A stretch of DNA of 64,000 nucleotides. Origin: Chromohalobacter moromii (lineage in GTDB: Bacteria; Pseudomonadota; Gammaproteobacteria; Pseudomonadales; Halomonadaceae). Under the pieces are notes generated by a model, which did not search any database, was not told the DNA's origin, and saw only the letters and a program-made list of their open reading frames with translations. The number at the start of each line of letters is the position of its first letter. Position 1 is the first letter of the stretch. Below are positions 1 to 55,939 of the stretch, piece after piece. The stretch covers positions 124,001 through 188,000 of the forward strand of contig NZ_JAHXDI010000001.1 in NCBI RefSeq assembly GCF_023091865.1, read 5' to 3'. A program made the position numbers and the translations under genes.

Positions 1-3700
<3,700 letters not shown>

Positions 3701-3743
3701 ATCTCGAGCTTCGGGTGTCGGGCAGGACAGAGACATCATCCTG

Positions 3744-3848
3744 CCCGCAGCCCGCAGCCCGCAGCCCGCAGCCCGCAGCCCGCAGCCCGCAGCCCGTAGC
3801 CCGTAGCCCGTAGCCCGTAGCCCGTAGCCCGTAGCCCGTAGCCCGTAG
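3744..3848. repeat. Heptamer tandem array, 7x CCCGCAG then 8x CCCGTAG
   Basis: Fifteen perfect 7-base units without interruption: seven CCCGCAG (3744-3792) followed by eight CCCGTAG (3793-3848). The array lies between gltD and pyrG, starts inside the right arm of a hairpin (3720-3746), and ends about 95 bases before the pyrG start. The block-wise change from C to T at one unit position suggests expansion of two variants by slippage or unequal crossing-over. A related array lies at 57775-57809. Translated frames across it give Leu-Arg-Ala-Thr-Gly-Tyr-Gly repeats that should not be annotated as protein. Confidence 0.95.
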
Positions 3849-6461
<2,613 letters not shown>

Positions 6462-6574: not shown

Positions 6575-7876
<1,302 letters not shown>

Positions 7877-7921: not shown

Positions 7922-7957
7922 ACCCACGGCGGCCTTCAGGGCCGCCGTGGGTGTTTT
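7922..7957 (+). terminator. Rho-independent terminator of eno
   Basis: Perfect 13-bp stem ACCCACGGCGGCC / GGCCGCCGTGGGT with a 5-base loop (TTCAG), followed by GTTTT. It lies 45 bases after the enolase stop codon. Confidence 0.9.
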
Positions 7958-7981
7958 GGAGTAAGCATTATCGTCATTTTT

Positions 7982-7999
7982 TGTAAGAGAATTCCTACA
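7982..7999 (+). promoter_or_regulatory. GacA/UvrY-type upstream activating sequence (candidate)
   Basis: TGTAAGAGAATTCCTACA matches the GacA-box consensus TGTAAG-N6-CTTACA with one mismatch in the right half. It is the core of a larger perfect dyad, CATTTTTTGTA (7975-7985) and TACAAAAAATG (7996-8006). It lies about 100-130 bases upstream of the predicted start of the GGA-rich RNA at 8100-8340, a spacing compatible with GacA-controlled rsm/csr small RNA promoters. Its position between the eno terminator and the RNA supports regulation of that RNA. Confidence 0.7.
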
Positions 8000-8019
8000 A
8001 AAAATGCCGTCCATCGGCG

Positions 8020-8060
8020 ATAAACAAGGGCAATAGGTGCGATAAACATTCCTTGTTTAT
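8020..8060. repeat. Inverted repeat in the sRNA promoter region
   Basis: ATAAACAAGG (8020-8029) and its exact reverse complement CCTTGTTTAT (8051-8060), separated by 21 bases; GCGATAAACA also occurs twice as a direct repeat. The stretch is far more AT-rich than its surroundings and sits between the GacA-like box and the probable promoter of the GGA-rich RNA. It may be a second regulator or nucleoid-protein site; this is inference. Confidence 0.45.
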
Positions 8061-8099
8061 TGTATGTCATTGTTTTTTTAGGCTTTTTTATGTTCTGCC

Positions 8100-8340
8100 T
8101 GGCGCTCTTGGGTAAGCGTCAGGGGATGGGACCCGGTTGAGGCACGTCACGGCTTCCGCAACAATGCTCCTGCACAGGATGAGCAAAGGCATTGCTTACC
8201 TGGAGGCAGATTGGGATGCAGCAAGGTGCGCCTGTCGTGGAGGGAGCCCATGGCAGGCATGGAGCGCACCTCGGGAGTCGAGCGGAGGGAGCCGCTCAGG
8301 GATGAATGGGATGCAGCGGCCTTCGGGCCGCTTTTTTTTG
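8100..8340 (+). ncRNA. rsmZ: RsmZ/CsrB-like CsrA-sequestering small RNA (candidate)
   Basis: No gene fits this stretch, but it has the layout of a Csr/Rsm regulatory RNA that titrates CsrA. I count 13 GGA motifs between 8124 and 8311, several in hairpin loops. AGCGG-AGGGAG-CCGCT (8281-8296) has a 5-bp stem with AGGGAG as loop. TGCTC...GAGCA (8165-8185) exposes CAGGAT. GGTGCGC/GCGCACC (8225-8270) encloses three GGA motifs. The RNA ends in a UUCG-loop terminator with eight T. The candidate -10 is TATGTT at 8089, so the 5' end near 8100 is approximate. It lies next to fdxA-mutS, the position I recall for rsmZ in Pseudomonas (between rpoS and fdxA), and csrA is 10 kb downstream. Confidence 0.75.
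8316..8340 (+). terminator. Rho-independent terminator of the GGA-rich sRNA
   Basis: GCGGCC-TTCG-GGCCGC stem-loop (8316-8331) with a UUCG tetraloop, followed by eight T (8332-8339). The T-run fixes the transcript to the plus strand, convergent with fdxA. Confidence 0.92.
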
Positions 8341-8426
8341 TCTTGCCGTTGCCTATCGATCCAAAAAAGCCGGCCTTGTCGAAAGGCCGGCGTTGCGTGG
8401 CGCGCCGAGGACGTTGGCAACCAGCG

Positions 8427-8750
8427 TCAGCGTTCGAGGTATTGCAGCTTGTCGGCGCTGCCATCCCACTGCTCCGCTTCCGGGAGAGGGTCCTTCTTCT
8501 CGCTGATGTTGGGCCAAACTTCGGAAAGCTCGGCATTCAGCTCGGTGAATTCCTTCTGACCCTCCGGAAGTTCATCCTCCGAATATATCGCTTCGGCCGG
8601 ACACTCGGGCTCGCACAATGCGCAGTCGATACACTCGTCGGGGTGAATCACCAGGAAGTTGGGCCCTTCGTAGAAGCAGTCCACGGGACAGACTTCGACG
8701 CAGTCGGTGTATTTGCAGCGAATGCAGTTTTCGGTGACGACGAATGTCAT
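8427..8750 (-). CDS. fdxA: 7Fe ferredoxin (3Fe-4S/4Fe-4S), FdxA type
   Basis: Small acidic cytoplasmic electron carrier, 107 residues, the usual length of the Azotobacter FdI-type family. Seen: N-terminal cysteines in [17 protein letters not shown] (residues 9-25) and a second cluster [12 protein letters not shown] (residues 40-51), the ligand set for one 3Fe-4S and one 4Fe-4S centre, then an acidic C-terminal tail. The start at 8750 is preceded by AGGAG with normal spacing; an upstream in-frame Met at 8846 would add 32 non-conserved residues and is rejected. It converges on the sRNA terminator and is divergent from nothing immediate; mutS lies upstream in the same orientation. Confidence 0.95.
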
Positions 8751-8923
8751 GAGGATCTCCTGAATCTCGGTCGCGGCAGCGCCCCAGAGTGACAGTAAGG
8801 TTATAAACGGGCGGCGATTTATAATGGCATATTCTAATGGCGCCACATTTTAGTCGCGCCCCTGGCGCGTGGGCAAGCGGAGGCCATAAACGTTTTGGAA
8901 TGGCCTCATAGCCAAACGCACCT

Positions 8924-11503
8924 TCAGCATTGTTCACGCCACTCATAGAGCAAGGCCATGGCCTGGCGTGGGGAAAGGTCATCAAGGTCGAGCTTTTCCA
9001 GCACCTCGATGACCGGATGCGGTGCACTGGCGAAAAGGTCTGCTTGTTGTGGTTTAGGCGCGTCGCCCTCGTGCATCCCGCCACGAGTGCTGGCCTGATG
9101 GACTTCCTGTTGTTCCAGGGTGGCGAGCTTCTCGCGTGCCCGTGCCACTACGCGTGGCGGCACCCCCGCGAGCTGCGCGACCTGTAGGCCGTAGCTTTGG
9201 CTTGCGGGCCCTTCCTCGACACGGTGCATGAAGACGATGCCGTCCTGATGCTCGGCGGCCGTCAGATGCACGTTGGCCACGCCGTCGTAGGGTTCCGTCA
9301 GGGCGGTCATCTCGAAGTAATGCGTGGCAAAGAGCGTGAACGCGCGTCGCTCGACCAGGTGTTCGGCGCTGGCCCAGGCCAGCGAGAGGCCGTCGAAGGT
9401 GCTGGTGCCGCGACCGATCTCGTCCATCAGTACCAGGCTGTGTTCGGTGGCGTTATGCAGAATGGTCGCGGTTTCGGTCATCTCCACCATGAAGGTCGAG
9501 CGGCCGCCGGCCAGATCGTCACTGGAGCCGATACGCGTGAAGATGCGATCCACGGGGCCGATTTCGGCATCGTCGGCGGGTACGCAACTGCCCGTATGCG
9601 CGAGCAGCGCGATCAAGGCCGCCTGGCGCATGTAGGTAGATTTCCCGCCCATGTTGGGCCCGGTGATGACCAGCAGGCGCCGCGTTTCGTCGAGCATCAG
9701 ATCGTTGGGCACGAACGGGTGATCGCTGACGTGCTCGACCACGGGATGGCGTCCGCCACGAATGCGCAGGCCGGGCTGATCGCTCAGGCGGGGGCGTACG
9801 AAATCCAGCGCCAGGGCGCGTTCGGCGAAACATGCCAGCACGTCGAGGGTCGCCAAGGCGCGCGCCGTGCCTTGGAGTGCTTGCAGATCGACGTTGAGCG
9901 TTTCCAGCAATCCATCATATAGCAGCTTTTCGCGCGCCAGCGCACGGGACTTGGCCGAGAGCGCCTTGTCCTCGAACTCCTTGAGTTCGGGGATGATGAA
10001 GCGTTCGGCATTTTTCAGCGTCTGGCGACGAATATACTCGGCCGGGGCCTCGCGGGCCTGAGCGCGCGGAATCTCGATGAAGTAACCGTGGACGCGGTTA
10101 TAGCCGACCTTGAGGCTGGCCAGGCCAGTACGCTCGCGCTCGCGCGTCTCGAGCTCCACCAGGTAGTCGCCGGCATGCTCGGCCAAGCCACGGTATTCGT
10201 CGAGTTCCTCGTCGAAACCTGTGGCGATTACGCCGCCGTCGCGGATCACCACGGGCGGGTTGTCCATCAGGGCACGGGTCAGCGTCTCGGCCAGTTCGGG
10301 ATACGGCCGGATATGACGCTTGAGCTCGTCGATGGCGGTGCCGTCGCCGAGCTCAGCGAGATCGCGCTCCAGCGCAGGTAGGGTATTGAGTGCATCGCGC
10401 AGGCGTGCCAGGTCACGTGGGCGAGCGCTGTAGAGAGCCACTCGAGCGAGGATGCGCTCGATGTCACCGATCGCCTTGAGCGGCTCGCGCAGGGCCGTAT
10501 AACGGTCGTCGTCGATGAGACTCTGCACTGCTGCCTGACGCGCCTGGACCTGGGCGGTATCGCGCAGTGGCCGGTTGAGCCAGCGCTTCAACTGACGCGA
10601 GCCCATGGCCGTGGCGGTGGTGTCCAACACGCTGGCCAGCGTGTTCTCGAAGCCACCGCCGAGGTTGATGTCGATCTCGAGATTGCGACGACTGGCGGCA
10701 TCGATCACCACCGCCTCGTCGCGAGTCTCCACGGCGATCCCGGTGACGTGGGGAAGGCGCGAGCGTTGGGTGTCGCGGGCGTAGTCGATGAGCACGCCGG
10801 CGGCGGTCAGCGCGGTGGTGAGATGCGCGCAGCCGAAGCCGCGCAAGTCGGCGACGCCGAATTGATCGCACAGCAAGCGCTGAGCACTCTCTAGATCGAA
10901 CAGCCAGTCGCCCTGGCGGCGAAAGCCGGGACGTTCGACGAGAGCAGGTGGCAACGAGAGACTCTCCGCGGCGAGCAACTCGGCGGGGTCGAGGCGCTGG
11001 ATCTCGGACAGCAGATCGCTTTCACCGTCCACCTCGAGCACGCTGAAGTGGCCGCTTGAAAGCTCTAGCCAGGCCATGCCCCAGCGTTCGCCGTGAGGAT
11101 GCACGGCAAGCACGAGATTGTCGCGACGCGCGTCGAGCAAGGCTTCGTCGTGCAGGGTGCCGGGCGTGACGATGCGCACGACCTGGCGGTCCACGGGGCC
11201 CTTGGCCGTGCTGGGGTCGCTCATCTGCTCGCAGATGGCCACCGATTCTCCGGACTTGACCAGCCGCGCCAAGTAACCCTCGGCGCTATGATAGGGCACA
11301 CCGGCCATGGGAATCGGCTTGCCCGCCGATTGGCCGCGTTGGGTCAGAGTGATGTCGAGCAATTTTGCGGCGCGTTTGGCGTCGTCATAAAACAGCTCGT
11401 AGAAATCGCCCATGCGATAGAAGAGCAGCACCTCGGGATGCTCGCGCTTGATCTTCAGGTACTGGACCATCATCGGGGTATGCTGGGCAGAGGCCTGGCT
11501 CAT
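8924..11503 (-). CDS. mutS: DNA mismatch repair protein MutS
   Basis: Recognises base mismatches and small loops and recruits MutL. 859 residues. Seen: the N-terminal mismatch-binding domain with the Phe-X-Glu motif in GDFYELF near residue 34; core/lever domains in the middle; and the C-terminal ABC-type ATPase with Walker [10 protein letters not shown] near 615, [12 protein letters not shown] (Walker B/signature) near 690 and ATHYFEMT near 725. The frame is open 25 codons further upstream, but the family start MSQAS... at 11503 is preferred. Neighbours fdxA, pncC, recA and recX reproduce the order I recall from pseudomonads. Confidence 0.97.
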
Positions 11504-11662
11504 GCGAATCCTTGTCGTGCCGGTGGCTGATGTTGCCAAATGTGGGATCAGGCGACGCGGCGCTGGATGAGCCTGCAAACGTTCGCCAAAGCCTCTATTC
11601 TACGCATTCGGGTGGGCGGCGTCAGTGGCACGTCGCTTGAGATGGCAACCGGGAGGCACGAC

Positions 11663-18216: not shown

Positions 18217-18414
18217 ATGCTCATCCTGACCCGTCGCGTCGGTGAAACACTGATGATCGGCGACGACATCACCGTTACGGTTCTGGGAGTGAAAGGCAAT
18301 CAGGTCCGTATCGGAGTCAATGCGCCCAAGGACGTAGCCGTACATCGCGAAGAGATCTACCAGCGTATTCAGCGCGAGAAGACCGATAGCGAAGACGGCG
18401 GTTCAAACGTTTGA
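18217..18414 (+). CDS. csrA: Carbon storage regulator CsrA/RsmA
   Basis: Homodimeric RNA-binding protein that blocks or activates translation at GGA motifs. 65 residues. Seen: the family N-terminus [18 protein letters not shown] with Leu4, and Arg44 in VHREEIY, the two residues known to be critical for RNA binding. AAGGAG precedes the ATG at 7 bases; the ribosome binding site itself contains GGA, so autoregulation is plausible. The probable antagonist RNA (8100-8340) lies in the same window. Confidence 0.97.
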
Positions 18415-54442: not shown

Positions 54443-54943
54443 CTATTCATAGAAGTTGATGAAGTAGGTCTTTGCGCTTTGTCTCGCTCTTTCCATTATT
54501 TTTTCATTATGGGGCAGGGATGCCTTGCCTAAGTGCTTTTGTATAGACAGCCTTCTTTTTTCCTTAATTTCTATGTGAAGCTTGTGAATTTCCTCCTCTG
54601 TAAGCCTACCCTCGGCTATATGGAACCAGTGGTTTTCCATTGATATAAAAAGACTTTCGAGTTCGTTTGTTAGGGAGCTTAATGACTTGAGTCGTAGCGA
54701 ATATGGCAAGTGCGGCTTTATGACATTTATGAACTGAGATGCTGCTATTATTGTCGCCCATAGGAGCTGTAAGTTGTTCCATACAGCCCAGCTAGCGATG
54801 CTGCCACTTGATGCCGCTGCTAGGAATATGTTTATTCCTCTTTCCGTGTTTTCCGTTTTTTCGAGATACAGTTCAAGGTAGTAGACGTGGATTTTTAGTT
54901 GGTCTAGCTCTCTCCAGAACTTTTTTTGGTAGATACTGCTCAT
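54443..54943 (-). CDS. Two-transmembrane protein, SLATT-like effector candidate
   Basis: 166 residues. Seen: a helical N-terminus (YQKKFWRELDQLKIHVYYLE), two adjacent membrane helices at about residues 37-53 (INIFLAAASSGSIASWAV) and 58-76 (LQLLWATIIAASQFINVIK), then a long amphipathic, charged helical tail (IHKLHIEIKEKRRLSIQKHL). This layout is that of SLATT domains, pore-forming effectors linked to nucleotide-signal defence systems; assignment is by architecture, not by a definite motif. Third gene of the TIR-caspase operon, 42 bases after the protease stop. AT-rich. Confidence 0.75.
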   Translation of the reverse strand: MSSIYQKKFWRELDQLKIHVYYLELYLEKTENTERGINIFLAAASSGSIASWAVWNNLQLLWATIIAASQFINVIKPHLPYSLRLKSLSSLTNELESLFISMENHWFHIAEGRLTEEEIHKLHIEIKEKRRLSIQKHLGKASLPHNEKIMERARQSAKTYFINFYE

Positions 54944-54985
54944 TCTAAGATTCGCCGATTTCCCATGTAAAGACTTTGTTTGTAG

Positions 54986-55939
54986 TTATATCATTCCATT
55001 TTTCACAAGCTTTCTATAGTGCTCGCCTAGAACTGTAAGTTTGCAGGATTTTCCTGACATAGCTGCGTGATACATGTGGATGGTATCAATAGGAGTAACG
55101 AGATTTACCCTGTTCATTCGTTGCAGAACTGCAAAGCGTTCAGTGTTTTTAGTGTTAGGCTCATCGCTTTCCGGCTCGAAGCTAGGGTCTAGTTGAAACT
55201 CAAAGCCTGGGGTTGGGAAGAGTTCTGTTATTCGTTGGAGGTCTGGTAAAGCTATCGGGGGCTGGACTGTTCTTAGCGAAAAAAATCTAGTAACGTTAGT
55301 TTTGAATACTGGTCTTTGTTCCCAAGGGCCCAAGGACTGATCAATGTGAGCATAAATGCTGCCAGGCGTTATTTCACCAACCAAGTTGCTAGCGGCGCCA
55401 CATAAAGCATCAACGAATAGCTGGGTAAAAATCCCTGAGCCATTCTCTTCCGAAGAATATTGATTAGCGGTAGAGGCAGTGAGAATGGTTACGCCTTCGG
55501 TAATCTCGGCTGTTTGCATGCAACCTGATCTGTTTCCAACGATTCCCGAGTGACAACTGTCAAGAATTATCAAGCGATTTCTTGCGTTAGACTGGTTGGC
55601 AAATGTCACCACATCATTTAAAGGCACTCCTTCATCACCAGATTCAGCATCGCTGGCTATTATATACCCTCCTGTAGAGTCAAGGCAGCCATGGCCAGCG
55701 AAAAAAAGAAGCGCACAGTCGCTATCTCCTTCGAATAGTTCTTGGATGTTTTTCCTAAGGTCGGATCTGGTAATTGAGCTTTCTGAGCCATCAGAGGTGA
55801 GTAGTTTTGTAGAGAAGTTTACGGTTCCGTCGCTATTTCTCTCTAGTGCAGCTTTGACTTCATGTGCATCATTGACGCAACCAAATAATGGAGGCACGTG
55901 ATCGTAGTGGTTTATTCCCACGATGAGTGCTTTTTTCAT
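54986..55939 (-). CDS. Caspase-like cysteine protease (peptidase C14 family)
   Basis: 317 residues. Seen: N-terminal [29 protein letters not shown] typical of caspase/metacaspase p20, catalytic His83 in [21 protein letters not shown] and catalytic Cys129 in [10 protein letters not shown]. The last about 90 residues (after [11 protein letters not shown], near 225) form a separate C-terminal region that may sense a ligand or bind a partner. Its ATG overlaps the stop of the TIR-like gene (ATGA at 55936-55939), showing tight coupling. TIR plus caspase pairs act as abortive antiphage systems in the Thoeris group. AT-rich island gene. Confidence 0.9.

Follow-up and report, generated by a model that had tools for sequence, protein, structure and literature searches.

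A candidate RsmZ-type CsrA sponge RNA with a GacA-type upstream box beside fdxA in Chromohalobacter moromii and other Halomonadaceae

In Chromohalobacter moromii (genome of 3.47 Mb), the gap between eno and fdxA harbors a conserved, GGA-rich element that in all likelihood encodes an RsmZ-type small RNA, activated by the Gac system and acting as a CsrA sponge. It lies in the window, that is, the whole stretch of 64,000 nucleotides that was analysed (G000:C1:124001-188000), where the gene order is eno (+), RNA (+), fdxA (-) and mutS (-), and the eno-fdxA-mutS region resembles named records of Modicisalibacter, Halomonas, Salinicola and Cobetia. The conserved box, the promoter-like elements, the RNA structure, the GGA sites, the terminator and the locus were found directly, as were csrA, gacA and a gacS-like gene (Table 1). 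The steps that go beyond this DNA anatomy, namely transcription, GacA binding, CsrA binding and titration, are modelled on the RsmZ paradigm. In the proposed model, activation of GacS/GacA would lead phosphorylated GacA to bind to the upstream box and, across an A+T-rich linker, to switch on a sigma-70-type promoter whose start lies about 181 nt past the box. The RNA would end at its own terminator, and its GGA hairpin loops and linkers would bind several CsrA dimers, titrating them off their target mRNAs, with the consequent relief of CsrA repression. An earlier note on this DNA had proposed an RsmZ/CsrB-type RNA in a Gac/Csr circuit, and this proposal is supported: the strand and the locus fit, and the box, promoter-like elements, a terminator, hairpins with GGA and the proteins of the circuit were all found.

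Table 1. Features of the candidate RNA gene and of the genes related to it, in window positions.
Feature	Position	Strand	Basis or detail
eno	6581-7876	+	family model
GacA-type upstream box TGTAAGAGAATTCCTACA	7982-7999	+	1 mismatch to TGTAAG-N6-CTTACA
A+T-rich linker, box to promoter	8045-8095	+	A+T profile of 51 loci
TTGtTTTTtaAg-like element within the A+T-rich linker	8069-8081	+	
-35-like TTGAGG (commonest form in the family TTGAGA)	8137-8142	+	conservation
-10-like AACAAT (commonest form in the family CACAAT)	8160-8165	+	conservation
Small RNA, about 168 nt, 11 GGA (RsmZ-type, putative CsrA sponge)	8172-8339	+	conservation, covariation, R1
Two-storey hairpin	8225-8270	+	outer stem 8225-8228/8267-8270, inner stem 8230-8235/8253-8258
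AGGGAG-loop hairpin	8280-8297	+	stem 8280-8285/8292-8297, GGA at 8288
Intrinsic terminator, 7-bp stem, UUCG loop, eight T	8315-8339	+	terminator scan, alignment
fdxA	coding 8430-8750	-	family model
mutS	8924-11578	-	translation recognised by eye
csrA, presumed RNA-binding partner	18217-18414	+	PF02599 94.6 bits; NF002469 122.7 vs cut-off 73

The limits of the RNA are set by conservation within the genus, all ten genomes of which carry it. In their alignment, 8171-8339 is nearly invariant, conservation jumping at the predicted start (around 8172) and dropping past the terminator, while the preceding 150 nt are variable, except for an A/T element and short promoter-like hexamers, and the box is kept further upstream. 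A search with 8085-8345 gives matches in 10 of 10 genomes; in six, the match starts no earlier than about 8152. As genus conservation begins at about 8171 and most of 8000-8160 is divergent, the transcript is taken to be about 168 nt long with 11 GGA, and not of about 240 bases as first claimed. The 13 GGA triplets on which the earlier note based its claim of GGA richness can indeed be counted at 8124-8311, but two of them (8124 and 8129) lie upstream of the predicted start, and counting in these two GGAs ahead of the promoter accounts for the greater length. The fold z-score, -2.69 for 8171-8339 vs -1.45 for 8097-8339, is consistent with the shorter transcript. A generic scan reports no sigma-70 promoter at 8137-8165, so that the promoter was taken from conservation instead.

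The composition of the RNA is unusual for the window, whose mean is 2.0 GGA per 169 nt. The + strand maximum is 11 GGA per 169 nt, reached at 38 positions, the 20 listed of which are all at the RNA locus, and the - strand maximum is 9. Nevertheless, dinucleotide shuffles of 8171-8339 reach 11 GGA in 10 of 5000 cases, and this figure together with the window maxima makes composition modest evidence; it is conservation and covariation, and not composition, that constitute strong evidence. The same caution applies to the box. The claimed TGTAAG-N6-CCTACA motif is present and has at most two mismatches in all ten genomes of the genus, but its centre is placed about 181 nt before the predicted start, and not at the 100-130 bases first estimated. 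Genome-wide, sites with at most two mismatches number 29 vs 60 for the reversed control pattern, fewer than in the control, so that the box by itself proves nothing. Three other GacA-like boxes with a single mismatch (C1:178768, which is window position 54768, C3:327871 and C4:340136) were rejected as candidates, no 200-nt stretch within 1.5 kb of them having more than 8 GGA; the one at 54768 is within an open frame.

Conservation was then followed across the family from the position of fdxA. FdxA was found in 119 of 121 family genomes (the other two genomes have a completeness of 77% and 87%), and of the 119 stretches downstream of its best copy, 5 were shorter than 1200 nt and 114 were kept. 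At least 8 GGA per 180 nt occur in 84 of these 114 regions, and 55 of the 84, across 12 genera, also have a box with at most two mismatches 120-230 nt ahead. Where eno is adjacent and the gap alone was scanned (n=87), 70 loci have a GGA cluster and 53 of the 70 also have the box; for 14 of the 84 clusters there is no adjacent eno and 1300 nt including other genes were scanned, so some of these may be coding. The set of regular members was obtained by setting aside 12 of the 84 clusters (g4, g6 and g7) and 4 more that have no recognised terminator, which left 68, and then the 10 loci of g9 and g15 and 7 that fall outside a box-to-terminator distance of 330-372 nt, which left 51 (47 distinct). 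After removal of L281 and L284, for which the scan had chosen a wrong -10, 45 sequences were aligned; being selected regular members, they give figures that describe the members and not the whole family.

The 51 distance-selected loci share a TTGAGA-like element, a spacer of 16 or 17 nt and a CACAAT-like element (two -10s being misassigned by the scan). The median separation between the centres of the box and of the CACAAT-like -10 is 172 nt, a spacing that is partly due to the selection of the loci; the RNA has a median of 170 nt and the GGA count a median of 11. When loci that have a terminator and a box of at most two mismatches are taken without distance selection (also n=51), the box-to-terminator distance is 330-372 nt in 48, and in the other three, where the scan chose another T-run, the box-to-GGA distance is 173-183. 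Across 51 loci, A+T averages 0.72-0.76 in the bins that lie 60-100 nt from the centre of the box, and most of the remaining bins between -40 and 180 give 0.39-0.58; in 20 of these loci a TTGtTTTTtaAg-like element (at least 11 of 13 positions matching) occurs at a distance of 75-79 nt from it. If Pseudomonas rsmZ is a guide, the linker is a possible site for bending or silencing by nucleoid proteins. At rsmZ, as given in the available portion of PMC4950607, IHF or H-NS-type proteins bind the A+T-rich region, and the P. aeruginosa site is located at -196.

RNAalifold on the 45 aligned sequences gives 23 pairs, 17 of them with two-sided compensatory changes; 97.7% of cells are paired, vs 84.2% in shuffles and 36-52% in slid controls, and none of 500 shuffles reaches any pairing measure of the alignment. 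The two-storey hairpin, with GGA at 8239, 8243 and 8261, has 10 pairs, 9 of which are changed on both sides, and 99.3% of its cells are paired, a result equalled by 0 of 500 shuffles. The AGGGAG-loop hairpin, which the earlier note had picked out and which is present as GAGCGG-AGGGAG-CCGCTC, has 6 pairs, all 6 changed on both sides, with 92.5% of cells paired. The UUCG-loop terminator was likewise correctly recognised, as a stem-loop at 8315-8332 followed by eight T; its presence in all 45 sequences is due to selection. GGA triplets are retained exactly in 45 of 45 sequences at 8261, in 43 at 8214 and 8288, in 42 at 8309, in 40 at 8177 and in 34 at 8274. Those at 8243 and 8300 are exact in 6 and 19 sequences, respectively, and are found within 3 nt in 37 and 44; poorly kept are 8202 (6 of 45), 8239 (6 of 45) and 8284 (11 of 45). 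The covariance model R1 matches the window at 8176-8338 with 130.6 bits, the window sequence being among the model's own 45.

These alignments also bear on whether the region could be a short protein-coding gene or a piece of a longer mRNA. Open frames do span it (e.g. 8137-8559 and 8211-8792), the RNA itself contains a closed 37-codon frame, and per frame 13 to 17 of the 45 relatives have no stop in it. However, no reading frame is conserved within the RNA across the 45 relatives, the longest closed frame inside it varies from 4 to 41 codons, all three remainders modulo 3 are represented among the RNA lengths and the stems covary, so that a coding origin is scarcely credible. The check proposed in the earlier note, conservation of GGA loops and hairpins as opposed to a coding frame, does not refute the RNA, as sites and hairpins are kept with covariation in relatives and a coding frame is not. 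Very improbable, too, is a structured element at the 3' end of eno or an opposite-strand attenuator of fdxA lacking any sponge role, a reading suggested by the location of the RNA in the eno-fdxA gap, with both genes pointing at it. Against it, eno has a separate hairpin and T-run at 7923-7957 (seen by eye, and absent from the generic scan), the box, promoter and terminator of the RNA come after this hairpin, and one locus (L083) has a strong R1 match, of 110.8 bits, at a distance of over 1 kb from fdxA.

Among the eno-adjacent gaps, 17 of 87 have fewer than 8 GGA, and 13 of the 17 belong to genus g3, none of whose 13 genomes has the RNA or GGA cluster in the eno-fdxA gap; GGA-rich RF00166 candidates below the cut-off are seen elsewhere in three g3 genomes (L162, L165 and L167). 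In genus g15 the cluster is found in 9 of 10 genomes and the box in 0 of 10. In the six genomes of genus g6 the arrays are longer, and 245-375 nt separate the box from the GGA peak. A longer GGA-rich array is also seen at the same locus, downstream of fdxA (-), in Cobetia amphilecti (L081), and the Cobetia amphilecti/g6 array is possibly a longer, CsrB-like RNA. In Larsenimonas suaedae (L107), four R1 matches of 52-69 bits stand in a row beside fdxA at 3492-4210 (-), in a locus with 27 GGA in 1080 nt. This looks like local amplification of a sponge RNA, either into separate genes or into a single long RNA; a tandem-repeat program reports no array at this locus.

The relation of the RNA to Pseudomonas RsmZ differs according to whether address or body is compared. 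Rfam at the gathering score finds only tRNAs within the window. The covariance search with Rsm/Csr family models that the earlier note had suggested does not give a family assignment: RF00166 (PrrB_RsmZ) scores 12.7 bits here (E 1.8) vs a cut-off of 44, and the CsrB model of Rfam has no match at the RNA locus up to E = 10. The RF00166 cut-off is passed by none of the 121 family genomes; below it, the model also matches in 4 of 14 control genomes. In contrast, 22 of 80 named fdxA loci are labelled Pseudomonas, and in 21 of these (all but L093) an RF00166 match is directly downstream of fdxA on the same strand, while 16 other named loci (Stutzerimonas, Thiopseudomonas, Marinomonas and Halomonadaceae among them) have no RF00166 match at the gathering score. 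RsmZ/PrrB and the present RNA share the position and strand beside fdxA-mutS, in convergent orientation. Both have a GacA box that precedes the start by about 180 nt, with A+T-rich DNA intervening, and both carry multiple GGA within stem-loops and have a terminator of their own. They differ in length and GGA number (matches of 119-136 nt with 6-10 GGA in the 21 loci vs about 168 nt and 11 GGA here), and in sequence and hairpin layout, which have here diverged past the Rfam threshold. The synteny claimed with rsmZ, adjacency to fdxA-mutS, stands; the upstream gene differs, being eno here; in Pseudomonas an RpoS-type sigma motif is found within 1200 nt upstream in 16 of the 21 loci checked. The same neighbour genes are named for the rsmZ neighbourhood in the part of PMC4353343 available, where the UAS appears in figure legends.

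Among the 80 loci, R1 detects 6 of the 9 named Halomonadaceae (52-149 bits) and misses two Salinicola and Modicisalibacter ilicicola, for which no eno was detected next to fdxA. Beyond the family it gives 22 matches up to E = 1, all of 20 bits or less, and 13 Pseudomonas loci at the rsmZ position score 10.1-18.0 bits. As these scores are low and the best two (L103, 20.0 bits, and L139, 19.5 bits) are not at the rsmZ position, the scores are considered near noise. In an order-wide search of 390 genomes, in which 7 candidates per genome were scored, 139 genomes have R1 matches at E <=0.01, 231 have no match, and matches below 1e-13 are limited to the family of the window, in 17 of its 18 listed genomes (G011 being the exception).

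Orthology to RsmZ is accordingly argued from locus and promoter geometry, and has to be weighed against a Csr-type sponge of independent origin that happens to sit beside fdxA and has RsmZ-like function but is no orthologue. For the latter speak the failure of the Rfam RsmZ model, the bare detection of Pseudomonas rsmZ by R1 and the presence of eno instead of an RpoS-type gene, as well as the repeated emergence of csr-type RNAs, RsmV and RsmW being probably independent according to the portion of the review PMC7366521 at hand. This origin is nevertheless unlikely, given that the convergent position by fdxA-mutS and the box are the same, and that the A+T-rich linker and the distance from box to start are similar, this distance being about 181 nt vs a median of 179.5 in the 21 Pseudomonas loci (where the best box is 161.5-183.5 nt before the RNA). 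Moreover, 17 of the 22 weak R1 matches outside the family are at the rsmZ position, just downstream of fdxA and on the strand of the RNA, and RF00166 gives sub-threshold matches (E 2.5e-7 to 0.009) to the fdxA-side RNA of five other family genomes (G012, G061, G052, G038 and G108). Since the address is shared and the body is below the RF00166 threshold, the RNA is designated RsmZ-type, and not a member of RF00166: it would be an orthologue by locus and promoter with a diverged body. The promoter address thus seems to be better kept than the RNA. A broader reading, which is put forward tentatively and which we would not yet favor, is that the regulatory address (GacA box about 180 nt from the start, A+T-rich linker, location beside fdxA) was kept from Pseudomonas to Halomonadaceae, while the RNA body was rebuilt as a separate structural family (R1, with its two-storey GGA hairpin) and the neighbour changed from RpoS-type to eno. 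If this were true, the near-fixed spacing would mean that an obligatory DNA geometry, a bend or loop, is needed for GacA to act at a distance.

CsrB and CsrC of Escherichia coli and RsmB of Pectobacterium work by the same titration mechanism, and compared with them the present RNA is shorter and has different neighbours. They are also listed in PMC7366521.

The proteins that such a circuit needs are encoded in the genome, GacS being represented by a candidate. The csrA gene claimed for the same window is confirmed by the family model from 18217 (+); it is the only match to PF02599 in the genome, and the closest solved structures to its product are CsrA/RsmA proteins. GacA exceeds its NCBIfam cut-off (291 vs 280 bits), and its gene is followed by uvrC (by eye). 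The candidate partner is a hybrid kinase of 989 aa with HAMP-HisKA-HATPase-receiver-Hpt architecture, encoded beside cysM (by eye; L336:1112-4081 (-), G000:C1), whose best family is BarA with 640 bits, under the cut-off of 890. A search for sCache_4 gives no match in this GacS-like kinase, and the same search finds the domain in E. coli; the kinase was for this reason located through its Hpt domain, and, as a GacS/BarA-like kinase that lacks the sCache_4 sensor domain, it may respond to a different signal.

A second RsmZ-like RNA is found in the genome at another locus (L177; G000:C1:1230351-1230486 (-)) and in 9 of 10 genomes of the genus. Like the fdxA-side RNA it is GGA-rich and has a terminator, and its RF00166 score, 34.4 bits, is below the cut-off although higher than the 12.7 bits of the latter. 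In the copies of two relatives (L143 and L146), no box with fewer than five mismatches is present within 400 nt upstream, and so this second RNA is possibly Gac-independent. Transposase-like ORFs are seen by eye upstream of it in C. moromii.

In the open-licence literature searched, no report of such an RNA in Halomonadaceae was found, which is no proof of absence. The table of a 2020 review (PMC7366521), in the portion available, has an entry for Halomonas anticariensis that gives GacS-GacA, CsrA as predicted and the mimic RNA as "Unknown", in a system that controls quorum sensing, exopolysaccharide and biofilm. The CsrA of Halomonas hydrothermalis has been modelled, with no such RNA mentioned in the available part of that article (PMC12889724), and the main text of PMC5568370 contains no word beginning with Halomona or Chromohalobacter. 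Very probably, the kind of RNA is one already known (RsmZ-type), and what is new is a closely bounded candidate member in Halomonadaceae. The locus is thus a candidate for the missing sponge RNA of the family, with predicted ends; the covariance model R1 finds relatives that the Rfam cut-off misses; and Gac/Csr control in these halophiles becomes testable through a single RNA gene. Some of these halophiles are in industrial use.

Two further observations were made elsewhere in the window. At 54443-55939 (-), a caspase-domain protein (PF00656, 74.5 bits) is followed by a small protein that has no Pfam match, and the two could form a defence or cell-death pair. Between gltD-like and pyrG-like genes (by eye), about 15 near-perfect copies of the 7-base repeat GCCCGTA occupy 3743-3849, and their number could be variable.
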